In this document: piece after piece, positions 31,237 to 38,834 of the stretch
How positions within the stretch are numbered: position 1 is the stretch's first letter
How the letters are laid out: the number at the start of each line of letters is the position of its first letter
Assembly: GCA_902613595.1 (NCBI GenBank)
Contig: CACMHY010000001.1
Span: 434,001-498,000 of the forward strand
DNA from: an uncultured Bacteroidota bacterium
Lineage (GTDB): Bacteria > Bacteroidota > Bacteroidia > Flavobacteriales > Flavobacteriaceae
Reading direction: 5' to 3'
Length of the DNA stretch: 64,000 bases
Translations under genes and position numbers: made by a program
The notes under the pieces: model-generated
The model's database searches: none
What the model saw: the letters and a program-made list of their open reading frames with translations, nothing else
Told to the model about the DNA's origin: nothing

Positions 31237-33597
31237 CTAAAAGAATAAAACGAATCCAAAGGTGGGTAAGGGTGAACTATTTCCTTCTTGATTAGACACA
31301 GGAACTAAATTTCTAGGCATTATAATTGTGCCATCCGGATTTCTGTTTAATCCATATTCTTGTGGAGTAGGATTTGGTTGAGCTAAAAAATTTTGTATAT
31401 CGAAATATAAGTTGAAGGAAAGATTCTTAAAATTCCATTTTTTATCTATTCGAATATCTGCAAGATTGAAAGCATCTAGTCTAAATTCCCCGAGTGTGTC
31501 ATAATCTAGAATAATTTCTGGATATGAAATAGTACTAGCAGTAATATCAACCGGAACATAAGGATTTTTCCCAGCATACCTCCAGCGAGCACTTATCTCC
31601 CAATTTCTTTTTAGTTTGTAACCTCCTGAAAATGAAATAAGATGACGACTATCCCATACTGATGGTCTTAGAATCCCATCAAGACCGGAAAATTTACTAG
31701 AAAAATATGTATAGGCCAAAATACCATAAAAGTTTTTGGCTAACTTTTGTTGAAATAAAAATTCCAAGCCAGATGTTTTACCTTCTCCAATAGATTGGAT
31801 AGCTTCGTTGCCAAGAACCTCAAACCCTCCTCCTTTATTAGCAAGTGATACCGCATCAATCAAAGAAACAGGAAATTGAGAATAATTTTTCAAAAATCCC
31901 TCTACAGTTAATCTTGAAACCGATGTTAGATTATATTCTAAACCAGCCACGTAGTGTTCACTTTTAGTGTATTGTGTAGATTTATTAACAAAAACTGATG
32001 AGTTGTTCTGAAAACCCAACATTGTATAGGTTGGAATTTTAAAATACCTACCAATGGAAGCATTAAATTTCCATTTTTGATCCTCGGAAAGGGAATATGA
32101 AAATGAAAGTCTTGGGGAAAAATTGTCAATTAAATTTGAGCCTGTTGAAAAGGTGTCAGCATCAGTTCTTATACCTAAAGAAATATTTAGCCTTTGATTA
32201 AAAAAATTATTACTTGCTTTTAGAAATAAACCATATTTAAAAAAATTTAAATCTGCTTCATAAAATATATTTTCTCTTAAAAAACTTGTTCCATTTTTAT
32301 AACTTGAATTTTGAACGTTAAATCCTACGGACCATTTCAAATTATTTACAAATTGTGTTAGGTTGAAACGCAATTTGGTTTCCCACTCATGAGAATCATT
32401 TTGAAAAACAATTCCGTTTTTATTTACATTGTCAAGATATCTTGAAAAAATATTTCCTAGCCTGTTTGAGCTAAGAGCTGTAGATGTGAATCCATTACCC
32501 TTTTTGAAGTTTTTCCTCCATGACAATCCCACTGTAGTACTTCTCTGTTCGATAATTGGTACTTGCTCAAGTGTTGCTTGTTGCTCTGCATCAAACTCAT
32601 CTGGCTGCTTGACAGAAAAATTGTCAATTGAGCCCAAACCTATAAAAGTTAATGTGTTATATTGATCTAATTCGTGTTTTACTTTCCATTGATAATCCCA
32701 ATAATCAGGTCGAATTGGCAGTCCAATTAGTTCAAAAAGAAATTGCAAATAACTTCTTCTTGCCGAAAATAAAAAGGTAGTTTTTGATGGTTCAGATTTA
32801 TTTTTTCTAAAAAGAGGACCTTCTAAGGTTAGTCCTGCTTCACTAGCCCCAAATCTAAAATTACCACCAAACCTGTTTGGGTCTCCCTCTCTTTGCTGGA
32901 ATGATAAAACACCTGAAAGCGGATTATCAAATTCTGCACCAAATGCAGAGCTTGAAAGAGTTACTTCCCTAATAAATGAAACATTAATCATACCTACAGG
33001 TCCACCTGCACTCCCTTGGGTACTAAAATGATTAATGTTTGGAATTTCAATCCCATCTAAATAATAAACCGTTTCATTAGGTGCTCCCCCTCTAATAATA
33101 ATATCATTTCTAAAGCCTCCTATTGAAGGAGAAATACCCGGCATGCTTTGTACTACTTTAGTAATGTCATTATTACCTCCAGGATAAGTTTCAATTTCAA
33201 CAACTGAAAAGGTTTGGGTTGATAAGGGAGTTTCACTGTTTGTTTTGAAAGGATTACTTGAAACTATAACTTCATCAAGATCTTCGGATAGTTCATTTAA
33301 CTCAAATATTAAAGGAATATTTCCAGCTGATTTTACAATTACATTAAATTGTTTAGTGGTTTGATATCCTAAAAAGCTTGCCTCTACATTATATGACTGA
33401 AAGGGTATATTATTTAAAACAAAATATCCATTTGAATCTGTAATAGTTCCAATATTTGTACCCTCTAAAATTATTGTAGCTCCTTGTAGTGGTTGCTGAG
33501 TTTTTACATCAACAATACGACCATTAAGTGTCCCTGAGTTTTGAGCAAAAACAATCTTAATGCCTACAAATAGATATAATATTAGTAGTTTTTTCAT
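31237..33597 (-). CDS. TonB-dependent receptor
   Basis: A 786-residue outer membrane receptor. A signal peptide (ending VFAQ, residue 19) is followed by a carboxypeptidase-regulatory-like domain (about 24-110, QPLQGATIILEGTNIGTITDSNG is its core), a plug domain (GGFRNDIIIRGGAPNETVYYLDGIEIPN) and a barrel ending LPTFGFVLFF with the terminal Phe needed for BAM insertion. No SusD partner is next to it, so it is not of the SusC type. The ligand is unknown. It is divergent from the Rieske lipoprotein by 78 bases. Confidence 0.88.
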   Translation of the reverse strand: MKKLLILYLFVGIKIVFAQNSGTLNGRIVDVKTQQPLQGATIILEGTNIGTITDSNGYFVLNNIPFQSYNVEASFLGYQTTKQFNVIVKSAGNIPLIFELNELSEDLDEVIVSSNPFKTNSETPLSTQTFSVVEIETYPGGNNDITKVVQSMPGISPSIGGFRNDIIIRGGAPNETVYYLDGIEIPNINHFSTQGSAGGPVGMINVSFIREVTLSSSAFGAEFDNPLSGVLSFQQREGDPNRFGGNFRFGASEAGLTLEGPLFRKNKSEPSKTTFLFSARRSYLQFLFELIGLPIRPDYWDYQWKVKHELDQYNTLTFIGLGSIDNFSVKQPDEFDAEQQATLEQVPIIEQRSTTVGLSWRKNFKKGNGFTSTALSSNRLGNIFSRYLDNVNKNGIVFQNDSHEWETKLRFNLTQFVNNLKWSVGFNVQNSSYKNGTSFLRENIFYEADLNFFKYGLFLKASNNFFNQRLNISLGIRTDADTFSTGSNLIDNFSPRLSFSYSLSEDQKWKFNASIGRYFKIPTYTMLGFQNNSSVFVNKSTQYTKSEHYVAGLEYNLTSVSRLTVEGFLKNYSQFPVSLIDAVSLANKGGGFEVLGNEAIQSIGEGKTSGLEFLFQQKLAKNFYGILAYTYFSSKFSGLDGILRPSVWDSRHLISFSGGYKLKRNWEISARWRYAGKNPYVPVDITASTISYPEIILDYDTLGEFRLDAFNLADIRIDKKWNFKNLSFNLYFDIQNFLAQPNPTPQEYGLNRNPDGTIIMPRNLVPVSNQEGNSSPLPTFGFVLFF

Positions 33598-34132: not shown

Positions 34133-34693
34133 TCAATTTTTTTTTGATGCTTTTCTCTCAAATTTTCTTTGCTCTTTTTGTCTGTTCTTTTGTTCAATGG
34201 CATTAATTGCATCTTGTTTTTCCTTTTCTCTCTTGTCGAACTGTTGACGAAGTTCATTTAAATCCTCATTGCCTATTTTCTGCTGGTCACTAGCTTGTAA
34301 AGCTCCATCCTCAATACTAAAGCTTGCATTTTGGGTTTGTTTACGCATAATTTCTTGTGCTGACTTTAAATTATAATAAACTCCCGGATCAATCATTTTA
34401 TTAGCAACATAATGCTGCTTATTTTTTTTATCCCAACGAACAAATACAAATCCACCTGTGACAGAATCTAATTTTACTCGAAAGACATGCGAATAATTTG
34501 GAAGGCTTTGATAAACCTCGATTTTTTCAGGTACATAACCTGCAACATATAAAAGCTCTTGAACAAATGCAGTTTGAGTAACTAATGATGGATCATTATA
34601 ATTTCCTTCTATTAAAGTTTCATCTTGTGCAACAACAAATAATGTACTTGTTATAGAGAACAATAATAATTGTAGTACTTTATTGTTAATCAT
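34133..34693 (-). CDS. Hypothetical exported protein with charged C-terminal helix
   Basis: A 186-residue protein that I do not recognise. It has a signal peptide (cleavage near VVAQ, residue 23), a compact middle part (about 30-110) and a highly charged helix or coiled coil at the C-terminus (QQFDKREKEKQDAINAIEQ). It lies 66 bases downstream of the ZnuD-like TonB receptor on the same strand and may be in its transcript. Its end nearly meets the Rieske gene. Function unknown. Confidence 0.7.
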   Translation of the reverse strand: MINNKVLQLLLFSITSTLFVVAQDETLIEGNYNDPSLVTQTAFVQELLYVAGYVPEKIEVYQSLPNYSHVFRVKLDSVTGGFVFVRWDKKNKQHYVANKMIDPGVYYNLKSAQEIMRKQTQNASFSIEDGALQASDQQKIGNEDLNELRQQFDKREKEKQDAINAIEQKNRQKEQRKFERKASKKN

Positions 34694-34759
34694 TCACAAT
34701 GAAAATTTTATATCACTTAAAGTTATTATAAATATTTTAAGATAAAATTACGTTGGTGA

Positions 34760-37180
34760 TTAATAATTAAAATTAAGTTGAATTTGGAGATTTCTTCCCA
34801 ACTCAGATGAATAGTAACGCATTCTGTTAAGATAGTCTCGATAATCGCTATTTAAAATATTTTGGGCTATCAATCTTAAATTAGTTGTAAGATTTTTTTG
34901 ATTCCTTATTTGTAACGAGAAAATAGCATCAAGTCGATGAAATCCAGAAGGAGACTCGCTAACATCAACTGTTTTTGAAACAATTGTTCCCTCCTCTATA
35001 TAATCAAAAATGAAATTAGAGTCTGGAAATCTATTTTGTTTTGCGCTTATGTGATTGGATATCTCAAAAGTCCATTTACTCTTTTTGGGTGAAAATTTTA
35101 ATTTTTGAAAAGAATTTAGAGGGGGAATTAAAATTAGAGGCTCAGAATTTAATATGTCCTGGGCATATACATATGAAGCTCCAATATCAAATCTAAGATT
35201 TTCTATTATTGATTGAGAATAATTAAGATCAATACCTGTCAAAAAAGCATCTGTACTCTTGTATGTCCATACTGGAAAAGCGCCTCTGATAGTCTGTTCT
35301 AATCCTGTTGGTTCTATGAAAATGTAGTTAAAAGTTTTTGAAACAAAAGGCTCTAATGACCAATTATAATTTGGTTTAGTTTTGGATAAACTCAAAAGAA
35401 ATTTGTGACTTGTCTCGGGATTTATACTTAAGTTCCCGTATTCAATAGCCGCCATGGCATGATGTAATCCATCACTAAATAATTCAGAAGGATTTGGCGC
35501 TCTTTGGGACAAGATGTAAGAAATATTAAATTCAGAATTATCTGATATTTTTTTTGAAATACCAGTTTGCGCGGAAACATTTAGATAATTGAATTTTGGG
35601 TTTACTAGAATTTGATTTGCAAAATCGGTTCCTGTTTCAAATTCATTAAATAATGTATCGTAATTTCTTTCTTCCCAGTTTGACTTGTAATAATATTTTT
35701 TAGCATCATAAGCCACATGATCTAGTCTTAATCCCCACTCCCATAAAAAGGAGTTGGATTCCTGATAGCTTCCTAGAATATAGATTCCATTCTCTAGCTT
35801 AATATAATCAGGAATTAGTCTTTTTACACCAGTATCTGGAGTAGAAAAGTTGTCTTGAATTAATCCATTGTATCCAAATTCAAAGTCCCAATTTTCCATT
35901 TTTATATTTGAAAAACCTAACATTAAATTATGAGTTTTAAGTAATAAATCAACTACCGGTATATTTGTTCTACCACCTCTTCTTATATCAAACTCTTTTC
36001 GTTTGTTGTTTTGATAGCTATATCCAAAATCAAGTATAACATCATTTTTGAAGGATCTGAAATATTTAAATGTTAACCTTTGATGACTGGCTCTTTGATT
36101 TGGGGCCCCTATGTTATATGTAAAATCCTCAACTATATTTGGTTCGCTGGAATTAAGTGCATAAAATAAATCTTGGACATTACCAATATGTGATGCCTTT
36201 AGAATTCCTGGCTCTAAATTATAATTTGAATAGTTTAAATTCCATCCTTTTGAAACCAAATCCTTTCCAAGTTTTATTGAAAAATCTACTTCTTTAAATC
36301 CAGTATTTGATAGGATATAATTTGGAGTATTAAAGTCTCCATATCTTTTACCTGTAAAATTTCCATTTATATAAAATCCATTTGAATAATTTTTTTCAAG
36401 TCTAGATCCAAATTTACCTCCCCAACCATTAGATTCTAAATTTATAAATGAAGTTCCGAAAAGTGTATCTCTTAAAACTTTTCTTTTGGAACTTAAGATA
36501 ATTGAACCTGCAGATGTATCTCCACCGTATTTTAAAGCAGCAGCCCCTTTTATAAGTTGAATTGTTTCAAAAGAATCGAAATCAATATTTGGTGCATGGT
36601 CAGGGCCCCATTGTTGATCATACTGCCTAAATCCATCGGTCACAATACCAACTCTACTTCCATACATGCCGTGAATAACTGGCTTACCAATTGAATTTCC
36701 AGTTTTTAAAATTGATGCTCCGGGGATATAATTTAATGCATCAACCAAAGTATTACTTCCATATGAATTAATTTCACTTATATCGACTAAAACTTCCTGA
36801 ACTGATTTTCTAGTTCGAGAAAGCCTAGAGTCAGATACTATAATTTCTTCTAATTCATTTATATGGTGTTCTAATTTTAAATCAAATATTTTGTTTTCTT
36901 TAAGATTAATGTTTTTGGTTTTTGATTTACAATTTGGATGGCTAATATTTAAAATATATCTACCAGGACATATTCCCTCTATTTTGTATTCTCCATTTAG
37001 ATTCGTTTGTGAAAAAAAATTGGTACCCTCAATTTGTATAAGGGCACCAATTAAAAAAGAGTCATCGTGAAAGTCAGTGACTTTGCCTTTTAAAAATAAA
37101 TTGCATTCTTGACTATAAGTAAGATTCCAAATTAATAAACAATTCAGAATAACATATAGATATATTGATTTGTGTTTCAA
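34760..37180 (-). CDS. TonB-dependent receptor, ZnuD-like, probable zinc uptake
   Basis: An 806-residue receptor with a signal peptide, a carboxypeptidase-regulatory-like domain (about 30-110) and a plug with the pattern KPVIHGMYGSRVGIVTDG then QQWGPDHAPNIDFDSF, resembling zinc receptors of the ZnuD group and their Bacteroidota relatives. The barrel ends with LQIQLNFNY. It starts one base after the stop of an upstream lipoprotein gene, so they are translated together. A Fur-family regulator is divergent from this pair and a palindromic operator lies between. The neighbours include His-rich proteins, so zinc is the favoured substrate; this is inference from context. Confidence 0.85.
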   Translation of the reverse strand: MKHKSIYLYVILNCLLIWNLTYSQECNLFLKGKVTDFHDDSFLIGALIQIEGTNFFSQTNLNGEYKIEGICPGRYILNISHPNCKSKTKNINLKENKIFDLKLEHHINELEEIIVSDSRLSRTRKSVQEVLVDISEINSYGSNTLVDALNYIPGASILKTGNSIGKPVIHGMYGSRVGIVTDGFRQYDQQWGPDHAPNIDFDSFETIQLIKGAAALKYGGDTSAGSIILSSKRKVLRDTLFGTSFINLESNGWGGKFGSRLEKNYSNGFYINGNFTGKRYGDFNTPNYILSNTGFKEVDFSIKLGKDLVSKGWNLNYSNYNLEPGILKASHIGNVQDLFYALNSSEPNIVEDFTYNIGAPNQRASHQRLTFKYFRSFKNDVILDFGYSYQNNKRKEFDIRRGGRTNIPVVDLLLKTHNLMLGFSNIKMENWDFEFGYNGLIQDNFSTPDTGVKRLIPDYIKLENGIYILGSYQESNSFLWEWGLRLDHVAYDAKKYYYKSNWEERNYDTLFNEFETGTDFANQILVNPKFNYLNVSAQTGISKKISDNSEFNISYILSQRAPNPSELFSDGLHHAMAAIEYGNLSINPETSHKFLLSLSKTKPNYNWSLEPFVSKTFNYIFIEPTGLEQTIRGAFPVWTYKSTDAFLTGIDLNYSQSIIENLRFDIGASYVYAQDILNSEPLILIPPLNSFQKLKFSPKKSKWTFEISNHISAKQNRFPDSNFIFDYIEEGTIVSKTVDVSESPSGFHRLDAIFSLQIRNQKNLTTNLRLIAQNILNSDYRDYLNRMRYYSSELGRNLQIQLNFNY

Positions 37181-37726
37181 TTACTCAACTATAGACACTG
37201 GGATATCGATGGAAACATCATTATACCCTCCAAAACCTTCTCTTGTTGTAGCATTAAAATTTGTTGGTTGATGTATTAAATATACTCTCACCAAACCAGT
37301 TCCAGTGGAACTCGTATTCCAAACACTATTTAAAAGAACACCTCTACCTCCGTCTTTAGTATCATTAGAAGCTGATGTTACATTAACAGAAACTTCTGCA
37401 AACTCATAAAATACTTGGTGCTCGTCAGCTTCCTCAATTACCTCAAGTGTTACATCTTCAATATCGTTTGGATCACTACTATCTATGAATCTTATTCCAA
37501 CGTTATGATCGGTATTTACTTTTAAACTAATTGTCTGGGAGTTCATTTCACTCAAATCCCAGTCAACTGTTTGTGATGTTCCGTCTGCAGATTCAATAGT
37601 GAGTATAACATTTGAAATATACTCTTGCTCGTTTATAGCATCTGGATCGTCTTTACTACATGAGACAATAAAAAGAAAAGCTAAAAAAAGAATTTTTGCT
37701 TTTTTAAATTTTGTGTAAAATTTCAT
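37181..37726 (-). CDS. Lipoprotein partner of the ZnuD-like TonB receptor
   Basis: The start is set at the ATG at 37726 (MKFYTKFKKAKILF). The longer in-frame version would translate the poly-A tract and the operator region. Signal and lipobox FIVSC give a lipoprotein of 181 residues. The mature part is beta-rich and contains EVIEEADEHQVFYEF, a pattern I recognise from small Bacteroidota lipoproteins coded just before TonB receptors in metal loci. It may pass the metal to the receptor. Function not shown for any member that I can name. Confidence 0.7.
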   Translation of the reverse strand: MKFYTKFKKAKILFLAFLFIVSCSKDDPDAINEQEYISNVILTIESADGTSQTVDWDLSEMNSQTISLKVNTDHNVGIRFIDSSDPNDIEDVTLEVIEEADEHQVFYEFAEVSVNVTSASNDTKDGGRGVLLNSVWNTSSTGTGLVRVYLIHQPTNFNATTREGFGGYNDVSIDIPVSIVE

Positions 37727-37758
37727 AATAAATTTTTTGGTTAAATGATTTAAATTAA

Positions 37759-37773
37759 TGCAACTCAGTTGCA
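37759..37773. promoter_or_regulatory. Predicted Fur/Zur-type operator (7-1-7 palindrome)
   Basis: TGCAACTCAGTTGCA is a perfect inverted repeat with arms of 7 around a single central base, the form of Fur-family boxes. It lies 33 bases upstream of the lipoprotein-TonB receptor operon and 53 bases upstream of the divergent Fur-family gene, so one regulator could control both. I did not see the same box elsewhere in the window. Confidence 0.6.
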
Positions 37774-37825
37774 AAAATAAGTACTTTTTTTTTTTTTGAG
37801 GAAAAAAAATAAATAAATTTGTTAT

Positions 37826-38215
37826 ATGGGTATACATAGAAAAACTTCTTCACTTAATACCTTGTTAAAGGAATTCAATAATGATATAAGCGCTATCACA
37901 GTTGTAGATCTTGTAAGTCGTTTAGGAGATAAAATGAACAAAACAACTATCTATCGTATCCTCAACAAGCTAGAAGAAGACTCTATATTACATTCATTTT
38001 TTGGGAAAAATGGGTTAAAGTGGTATGCAAAATGTGATGGGTGTTGTAATAGCAAGCCTGAATCAATCTTAAATAAATTTCGTCCACATTTTCAATGTCT
38101 TAGTTGTGGTAAAATAGATCGCCTTAACATAGAAATGAAATTACCAAAAGTGACTGATCAAAAAGTTAGTGTATCGCAATTATTGATTCAAGGAAGATGT
38201 GAATCATGTAATTAA
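37826..38215 (+). CDS. Fur-family transcriptional regulator (probable Zur)
   Basis: A 129-residue Fur-like protein: N-terminal winged helix (MNKTTIYRILNKLEEDSIL near 37-55) and a short dimer domain with the structural zinc cysteines Cys91/Cys94 (CLSCGK) and Cys125/Cys128 (CESCN). The HFQCLSCG motif is typical of Fur, Zur and PerR. A further CDGCC at 70-74 is unusual. Its position beside a ZnuD-like receptor and His-rich proteins argues for Zur over Fur. A TAAATTTG box (37814-37821) lies only 4 bases before the ATG, so the mRNA may be nearly leaderless. Confidence 0.82.
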   Translation: MGIHRKTSSLNTLLKEFNNDISAITVVDLVSRLGDKMNKTTIYRILNKLEEDSILHSFFGKNGLKWYAKCDGCCNSKPESILNKFRPHFQCLSCGKIDRLNIEMKLPKVTDQKVSVSQLLIQGRCESCN

Positions 38216-38258
38216 TTGATATTTTTCATTCATAAGAAACTTCATTTAAATTTTAGAT

Positions 38259-38300
38259 AAAAAAATTGGCCTTACACAAATATGCAAGGCCAAAATCATT
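38259..38300 (-). terminator. Rho-independent terminator between Fur-family gene and His-rich genes
   Basis: TTGGCCTT (38266-38273) and AAGGCCAA (38286-38293) form a perfect 8-base-pair stem with a 12-base loop. On the minus strand it is followed by a T7 run, so it ends the His-rich lipoprotein transcript. On the plus strand no good T-run follows, but it may also act weakly for the Fur-family gene. Confidence 0.75.
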
Positions 38301-38325
38301 ATTGTAGTTAAATAATTGTTTTTGC

Positions 38326-38460
38326 TTAAGCAATATTAGCCGAAGAATCTTCTACTAATGCAGAATGATCATGTCCATCGTGATCATCATGATCGTCATC
38401 TTCACATGAAATAACAGCGAAGGATGCAAAAGCAAATAATAACAATAAGTATTTTTTCAT
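38326..38460 (-). CDS. 44-residue His/Asp-rich lipoprotein, putative metal binding
   Basis: A short gene read from the minus strand: MKKYLLLLFAFASFAVISC is a complete lipoprotein signal (Cys19), followed by EDDDHDDHDGHDHSALVED, with five His and many Asp in 15 residues. The mature peptide has only 26 residues. Such a tag should bind zinc, copper or nickel at the membrane surface. It lies 29 bases after the His-rich membrane protein gene on the same strand and before a strong terminator, close to the Zur-type regulator. Its length, signal and context support a real gene. Confidence 0.72.
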   Translation of the reverse strand: MKKYLLLLFAFASFAVISCEDDDHDDHDGHDHSALVEDSSANIA

Positions 38461-38489
38461 TTTAAAAAGTTTTAATTGTTAGTTAATAT

Positions 38490-38834
38490 TTAATAATTAC
38501 CGAAAAAAAAATTCGGTGGACCTCTATCTTTTAGATTATTGAAAATCAATCTATTGTAAATAGAAGTATTATTAAATATGTACCTAAATAATGTTTGAGC
38601 ATTATTTAAGATTATTTCACTATTAAAATGATATTCAACTAAAGGCTGGTAATAAACATCTAGAAAATCATTATGCTTATTATAATTATGAATGTGAGTC
38701 TGTTCATGAGAACATTCAATATTATCTGAGTGGTAGCTAAAGGCGTGCTCTAGTTTCAAACCCATAGGGGTTAAAAACATAGCTGCTAAAAAAATTGAAA
38801 TGAATGAATAGAGATAACTGATATTTGGATTCAT
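38490..38834 (-). CDS. Small His-rich exported or membrane protein, metal locus
   Basis: A 114-residue protein with one hydrophobic segment (about 8-28) that may be a signal or anchor, then a His/Cys cluster: His30, His35, Cys41, His43, His47, His49 and His54. The C-terminus KDRGPPNFFFGNY has the RGPP ending that I know from small hypothetical proteins of Bacteroidota metal resistance or uptake loci. It lies 10 bases after the DUF1080 gene and 29 bases before the His-rich lipoprotein. Metal binding is likely; the exact role is unknown. Confidence 0.65.
   Translation of the reverse strand: MNPNISYLYSFISIFLAAMFLTPMGLKLEHAFSYHSDNIECSHEQTHIHNYNKHNDFLDVYYQPLVEYHFNSEIILNNAQTLFRYIFNNTSIYNRLIFNNLKDRGPPNFFFGNY

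Follow-up and report, generated by a model that had tools for sequence, protein, structure and literature searches.

A Candidate Zinc-Uptake Operon with an Adjoining Zur-Type Regulator and a Predicted Operator in an Uncultured Flavobacteriaceae Bacterium

The Locus

We analyzed a metal-related locus in a stretch of 64,000 nucleotides (the window; contig CACMHY010000001.1, positions 434,001 to 498,000) from an uncultured member of the Flavobacteriaceae, whose genome (G000; 1.90 Mb in 24 contigs, 85% complete) was set beside a family sample of 120 genomes and 38 genomes of its own genus (the congeners); G labels denote genomes and L labels loci. The comparison makes it probable that a lipoprotein and a ZnuD-like TonB receptor are encoded in a zinc-uptake operon, which an adjoining Zur-type repressor would control through one operator. 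All the parts named in a first-pass annotation of this DNA, including a perfect 7-1-7 palindrome, were found in place when checked against open reading frames (ORFs) and sequence. Together with the promoter elements, they are as follows (window positions; aa, amino acids):

34133-34693, minus strand: secreted protein of 186 aa, downstream of the receptor gene
34760-37180, minus strand: TonB receptor of the ZnuD/OprC group, with a TTG start and Plug and CarbopepD_reg domains
37181-37726, minus strand: partner lipoprotein of 181 aa, lipobox ...FIVSC
37759-37773: palindrome TGCAACT-C-AGTTGCA, proposed as a Zur-type operator, in the gap separating the lipoprotein gene from the divergent regulator gene
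37772-37779, minus strand: TATTTTTG, a -7-like element for lipoprotein-receptor transcription, overlapping the palindrome by 2 bases
37814-37821, plus strand: TAAATTTG, a -7-like element for the regulator, fitting TAnnTTTG
37826-38215, plus strand: Zur-type Fur-family regulator of 129 aa, assigned from PF01475, alignment, and an AlphaFold2 (AF2) model
38266-38293, minus strand: terminator-like hairpin between the convergent 44-aa and regulator genes, from a consensus scan
38326-38460, minus strand: His/Asp-rich lipoprotein of 44 aa, SCEDDDHDDHDGHDH, with homologs and purifying selection
38490-38834, minus strand: small membrane protein of 114 aa with a His/Cys pattern (H..C..THxH) and a C-terminal R(A/G)PP

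The TTG start of the receptor gene abuts the lipoprotein stop codon; thus, the two genes very likely share one transcript. The ATG at 37837 given for the lipoprotein in the ORF listing is an unlikely start. A Pfam scan assigned PF01475 to the regulator (26.3 bits, cut-off 23.1) and Plug and CarbopepD_reg to the receptor, and found no family above cut-off for the 186-aa protein, the lipoprotein, the 44-aa protein, and the membrane protein.

The Operator and Its Promoters

The palindrome starts 47 bases upstream of the lipoprotein gene and 67 upstream of the regulator gene, and is the single exact copy in the 1.90-Mb genome, where 0.006 copies are expected from the base composition of the window. 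The first-pass annotation had proposed a search for it upstream of other zinc genes in the same genome; our survey, which went to two mismatches in the ~85% of the genome available, disclosed no second site with at most one mismatch, leaving the receptor operon as the only target found. Of seven sites with two mismatches, six lie within ORFs and one (L003) spans the gap between two convergent gene ends; the site at L309, 54 bases into an ORF, is a possible operator if the true start lies later.

Elsewhere, the same element recurs in front of regulator orthologs. In the 80 named loci (the best 80 of 335 confirmed, which include near-duplicates, loci cut by contig ends, and genomes shared with the family sample), a site matching at least 12/14 positions occurs within 200 bp upstream of the regulator in 75, and one matching at least 13/14 in 70; the best site lies at -66/-67 in 50 loci and at -28/-29 in nine, and the window is without the second, -28 site present in many relatives. 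In the family sample, 20/20 regulator loci read have a site matching 12/14 or more positions in front of the gene, a set that overlaps the 80 and covers 20 of the 22 places with a close ortholog (E below 1e-28) outside G000, G011 and a second copy in G086 being left out. Exact palindromes occur in 14/120 family genomes; a close regulator ortholog is carried by 21 genomes, and 12 of the 14 belong to these (Fisher p 2e-9), and the palindrome read backwards, used as a control, occurs in 0/120. A chance palindrome is ruled out by its rarity in the genome, its upstream recurrence, and the empty control, and the comparison supports the palindrome as the operator of this regulator family.

The Bacteroidota -7 promoter consensus is TAnnTTTG. 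Among the 54 loci with a site at -66/-67, this element lies at box +54/+55 in the direction of the regulator in all 54 and, on the opposite strand, at box -6 in 46; the box -6 spacing is also found at the lipoprotein promoters of G125, G149, G155, G156, and G147. Given the overlap of the palindrome with TATTTTTG, a bound protein would mask the start region at the promoter of the lipoprotein gene.

The Regulator and the Neighborhoods of Its Orthologs

An uncultured relative, Bacteroidetes bacterium SCGC AAA795-G10, encodes a regulator identical in sequence to the one in the window. The latter keeps H56, C70, C73, and H88 together with the structural Cys4 set, and has R86 and R99 where relatives carry His and Cys. 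Ligands were counted over 105 rows, 31 chosen and 74 of the 80 named loci (L176-L180 and L248 were omitted as presumed covered). The structural Zn(Cys)4 residues C91, C94, C125, and C128 are present in 105/105, and the sensory-site C70 is Cys in 99/105. By our own count, C70 aligns with position 79 of PDB 3mwm, and in ScZur C79S abolishes binding (PMC6103462). Foldseek ranked 7ne9, by its title a marine cyanobacterial zinc sensor, first for the AF2 model (E 2.5e-7), and PerR and Fur scored almost as well; the score against NCBIfam PRK11639, the E. coli-type Zur, is 13.6 bits against a cut-off of 167, and we thus do not file the protein as an E. coli-type Zur. A Zur-type regulator is supported by these features. 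The Fur fold, the structural Cys4, the sensory Cys aligned with ScZur C79, and neighbors of zinc-regulon type are shared with the Zur proteins of Streptomyces, Mycobacterium, and E. coli, and 7-1-7 operators are reported for some Zurs (PMC6103462); the window differs in a regulator of 129 aa, in its operator TGCAACTnAGTTGCA, and in the loss of H86 and C99.

That loss marks the regulators inserted between the 44-aa gene and the lipoprotein gene in six congeners. The five compared (window, G155, G149, G146, and G141; the G125 protein is identical to the window's) are the only ones of the 105 rows without H86, which is replaced by Arg or Leu, and the only ones with C74; C99 is missing in these five and in L024. 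They also share a four-residue insertion and form one clade (100/98) in a tree that has few columns and an unsettled bootstrap. Sites with at most one mismatch number four in G141, whereas G125, G149, G155, and G146, like G000, hold only the one at this locus. The altered protein may be a Zur reduced to one target with changed sensing, or may reflect drift after regulon loss in small genomes.

Around the 80 orthologs, neighbors were counted as sequence clusters, one representative of each being scanned. MerC occurs at 60 loci, the GTP cyclohydrolase I FolE at 42, ABC ATPases at 32, cobW/COG0523 GTPases at 26, MacB-like FtsX permeases at 15, and TonB receptors at 13 (the window's clade included), the representative of the last scoring 145 bits to NCBIfam ZnuD (cut-off 950). 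Zur regulons are listed with yciC/zigA, folE2, and TonB receptors (PMC6103462), and the neighborhoods support a regulon of zinc type for the orthologs. In the window's close relatives no site of at least 11/14 lies within ~1.5 kb on either side of merC in G125, G146, G149, and G155, or of the COG0523 GTPase gene in G125, G146, and G149. Among loci L176-L255 several uncharacterized neighbors recur (clusters c9, c10, and c13, and a 145-aa protein after the FtsX permease), as do His-rich lipoproteins beside a second ZnuD-like receptor; these genes are candidates for zinc-scarcity functions. In Polaribacter irgensii (L243, 8480-14244) there are two regulator-merC-folE blocks, with a receptor and a lipoprotein behind one, whose folE is split into two short ORFs.

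The Receptor

Receptor residues are numbered by an alignment of 17 receptors (A3) that starts at residue 3. Against solved structures, a profile of the receptor gave 9gbc (mainly over the plug and N-domain), ZnuD, and OprC as best matches, and a single-sequence comparison placed OprC and ZnuD closest; hmmsearch matched ZnuD of Neisseria (4RDR) over plug and barrel with E 2.6e-21. The zinc ligands of ZnuD are printed as D90/H100/E340/H499 (PMC4557270); since the residue before H100 is Asp by chain numbering (chain index minus 14), we take the first ligand as D99. In the profile alignment D192-H193 falls on D99-H100 and H571 on H499; H193 and H571 are present in 17/17 receptors, all of which have Asp or Glu at position 192. 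The plug motif, QQWGPDHAP in the window, reads W-G-x-(D/E)-H-A-P across the receptors. These three equivalents, a plug D-H and a barrel His, support a ZnuD-like receptor, and it differs from ZnuD in an extra CarbopepD_reg domain, in its lipoprotein neighbor, and in loop 3. In the N-terminal CarbopepD_reg domain C24, H36, C69, H79, C82, H103, and H104 are present in 17/17.

The same architecture could serve another metal (copper, cobalt, nickel, or a metal-ligand complex), sensed by the regulator with altered ligands. The copper importer OprC (PDB 6FOK) belongs to the same receptor group and stands, among solved structures, at about the same distance as ZnuD, the two metal sites lie at similar places (PMC8610252), the inserted regulators lack H86 and C99 and carry an added C74, and merC is the commonest neighbor of the orthologs. 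Nevertheless, the copper site of OprC, CxxxM-HxM (PMC8610252), is absent from the window receptor, whose plug has neither Cys nor Met and whose 804 residues include 5 Met and 4 Cys, and the COG0523 and FolE neighbors indicate zinc. OprC-type copper import is lowered by the missing ligands, and another metal altogether seems quite unlikely.

The Partner Lipoprotein

In an alignment of 26 lipoproteins (A1), C23 of the lipobox, D26, E95, E99, H103, L150, H152, G166, and D170 are invariant. The AF2 model is a single Ig-like beta-sandwich (pLDDT 84); a fold search with it returned no match at E of at most 0.001, the best rows being generic Ig-like sandwiches. Lipoprotein-assisted receptors such as SusCD, TbpAB, and HmuY/HmuR have a lipoprotein gene next to that of the TonB receptor. 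The window shares this arrangement, with a partner that is predicted here; SusD, HmuY, and TbpB are not among the fold matches listed for the lipoprotein, a listing that excludes none of them.

The lipoprotein occurs in 52/120 family genomes, and 19 of the 20 loci read in the family, L085-L104, have a receptor homolog adjoining it (in two ORFs at L092), the exception, L088, being cut off inside the lipoprotein by the contig end; this supports the lipoprotein as a constant partner of the receptor. The gene set that the first-pass annotation proposed to look for in relatives is thus widely conserved for lipoprotein and receptor, and not for regulator and receptor. About half of these 20 loci lie near genes that read, by eye from their translations, like serC and serA, and the gene order frequently places a small H..C..THxH membrane protein ahead of receptors of this type.

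Three Locus States within One Genus

Among the 38 congeners, 26 loci have a visible lipoprotein start, G144 (22 lipoprotein residues visible) and G141 (lipoprotein running off the contig) being partial; L149, L157, and L173 were omitted because the lipoprotein lies off the contig. Three states are found side by side. Fourteen loci have neither palindrome nor regulator: in 12 of them the order is a 3-keto-disaccharide hydrolase (KDH) family gene, the membrane protein, the lipoprotein, the receptor, and the 186-aa protein (DUF186), without the 44-aa gene, several having intervening genes and L154 a KDH fragment; in the other two, G137 and G122, the 44-aa gene is added. In six genomes (G156, G147, G148, G154, G138, and G144) the palindrome precedes the lipoprotein and the regulator does not adjoin; the latter lies elsewhere in G156, G138, and G144, next to merC in G156 and G144. 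In the last six (G000, G125, G149, G155, G146, and G141) the regulator is inserted as described above, G141 having a second copy elsewhere (L163). G125, G146, G149, and G155 also hold a merC gene beside a methyltransferase-like gene (by eye), without palindrome or regulator, in a setting that resembles the regulator-bearing one of G144 and G156. Loci with the palindrome come from regulator-bearing genomes in 9/12 cases and loci without it in 0/14 (p 7e-5), a value that counts related, not independent, genomes, since the inserted regulators are one clade and the palindrome loci probably one lineage.

An ancestral unit of six genes is rejected by this distribution, in which regulator and receptor adjoin in six genomes of one genus. 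From the 14 bare, six palindrome-only, and six complete loci we infer that the receptor-lipoprotein operon came first and was later captured by a Zur-type regulator. Could the palindrome instead autoregulate the regulator gene alone, with the receptor operon a chance neighbor? The site is indeed the usual upstream site of this regulator family, and over half of the receptor loci in the genus are without it. Yet in six genomes it stands at the lipoprotein promoter with no regulator adjoining, and is thus not autoregulatory there; it overlaps the TATATTTG element in G156, G147, G138, and G144; and merC operons of Polaribacter irgensii, a Urechidicola croceus metagenome-assembled genome, and G151 contain, downstream of such a site (12/14 in G151), a receptor and a lipoprotein of a related subtype, 28% and 29-33% identical to those of the window. 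Autoregulation alone is, we consider, very unlikely.

A Model of Zinc-Responsive Control

We suggest that, with enough zinc, the zinc-loaded regulator would bind 37759-37773, starting inside the -7 element of the lipoprotein-receptor pair, and would shut this promoter and probably that of its own gene. When zinc is short the regulator would let go and the pair would be made, the receptor moving Zn2+ inward on TonB energy and the lipoprotein, presumably at the cell surface, capturing or presenting zinc at the outer membrane. The Zur regulon of Caulobacter, by its description, likewise joins Zur with TonB receptors for zinc (PMC4176598). Uptake under an adjoining Zur-type repressor remains our probable reading; efflux or detoxification, to which the mercury-resistance family name of the merC neighbors might point, is extremely improbable, for the locus has no efflux pump among its genes, regulator orthologs sit with genes of zinc-scarcity type, and TonB receptors import their substrates.

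Several observations weigh against the proposed model. On the side of the regulator, H86 and C99 are near-invariant in relatives and lost here, so that zinc sensing by the inserted proteins could be weakened or changed; the FolE of the neighborhoods is PF01227 and not folE2, which makes the parallel with known regulons one of function and not of family. In the receptor, E340 of ZnuD has no clear counterpart (E394 and D396 are invariant nearby), the His-rich loop 3 cluster is absent from the translation (16 His in 804 residues), and the score against NCBIfam ZnuD NF038289 is 54.2 bits against a cut-off of 950, hence our term ZnuD-like rather than ZnuD. As to the operator, a palindrome of at least 13/14 is found at 0/20 receptor-lipoprotein loci from the rest of the family (at L104 a 12/14 site precedes the second gene upstream from the receptor), and this control is thus not general for the receptor; exact palindromes also occur without a close regulator ortholog (G030:C9:35921-35935 and G096:C6:104630-107677). 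Within the genus, the palindrome of G148 and G154 lies ~100 bases from the lipoprotein start without a -7 element at the usual place, the -7 element of G146 is altered, and no regulator was seen in G147, G148, and G154 (57-79% complete) despite the palindrome.

A bolder extension, which we advance tentatively and would sooner doubt than accept, is that of a self-contained zinc module with one operator: a re-tuned Zur would have left its old regulon to control one operon in five genomes (G141 with its four sites excepted), the lipoprotein would represent a new class of zinc-capturing surface partner (D/E/E/H/H/D), and the 44-aa lipoprotein would be a peptide of zinc scarcity that has, in sister lineages, a Zur promoter to itself.

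Among the matches listed in a literature search, none deals with a Zur regulon in Bacteroidota. The main text of a 2018 Zur review has no word beginning with "bacteroid" or "flavobact" (PMC6103462), and a paper on ZntR of Riemerella, in the parts consulted, names TonB receptors that are altered in a zntR mutant and touches on Zur in general terms only (PMC11960050). The present comparison yields an operator and promoter geometry that can be tested in many marine Flavobacteriaceae, a candidate lipoprotein partner for zinc, and one genus in which bare, operator-only, and operator-plus-regulator receptor loci coexist. Zinc is scarce in surface ocean water, and the zinc supply of pelagic Flavobacteriaceae is therefore of wider interest.

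The 44-aa Lipoprotein and Other Neighbors

The 44-aa ORF is, judging by its substitutions, a real gene under purifying selection: in comparisons with ten congeners, two showed 8 synonymous changes against 0 nonsynonymous, and the dN/dS ratio was 0 to 0.2 in the nine with computable dS. Homologs occur in 12 congeners and, in other genera, in G065, ~1 kb from the lipoprotein-receptor pair and on the other strand, and in G095, near the same genes. In G138, G141, G144, and G147 the gene has its own palindrome, which supports a place for the 44-aa protein in this response; its motif HDDHDGHDH suggests zinc binding, and it might act as a zinc buffer. As a candidate for the NCBIfam PG1828 lipoprotein family it was rejected (23.9 bits, below the cut-off of 50).

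The first-pass annotation had envisaged a surface relay in which zinc would go from this His-rich peptide to the lipoprotein and from there to the receptor. Selection on the gene, its own palindrome in four genomes, its place beside or ~1 kb from the operon in three genera, and the six invariant acidic or His residues of the lipoprotein beyond the lipobox all agree with such a relay. Set against these, the 44-aa gene was not found at 12 of the 14 palindrome-free loci of the genus, and the receptor pair therefore occurs without the 44-aa protein; moreover, the lipoprotein fold is a generic Ig-like sandwich. A relay is, on balance, rather unlikely.

The zinc theme that the same annotation extended to all six genes agrees, by comparison, with the Zur-type regulator, the ZnuD-like receptor, the operator, and the response of the 44-aa gene. 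It does not reach the 186-aa protein, a conserved neighbor whose gene follows that of the receptor both in the genus and in G020, and for which no metal link was found. An extra gene of ~225 aa between the receptor and the 186-aa gene, and a pair of ~218 and ~232 aa before KDH, recur at several palindrome-free loci of the genus, L147 and L150-L152 among them; no palindrome-bearing locus read has these extras. Further out in the window, a Rieske [2Fe-2S]-domain protein (PF00355; 33676-34128), convergent to the 186-aa gene, and a second TonB receptor with a CarbopepD_reg domain (31237-33597) are conserved neighbors in the genus, and the KDH family protein (PF06439; 38845-39573) is frequently found upstream of the membrane-protein or 44-aa gene.

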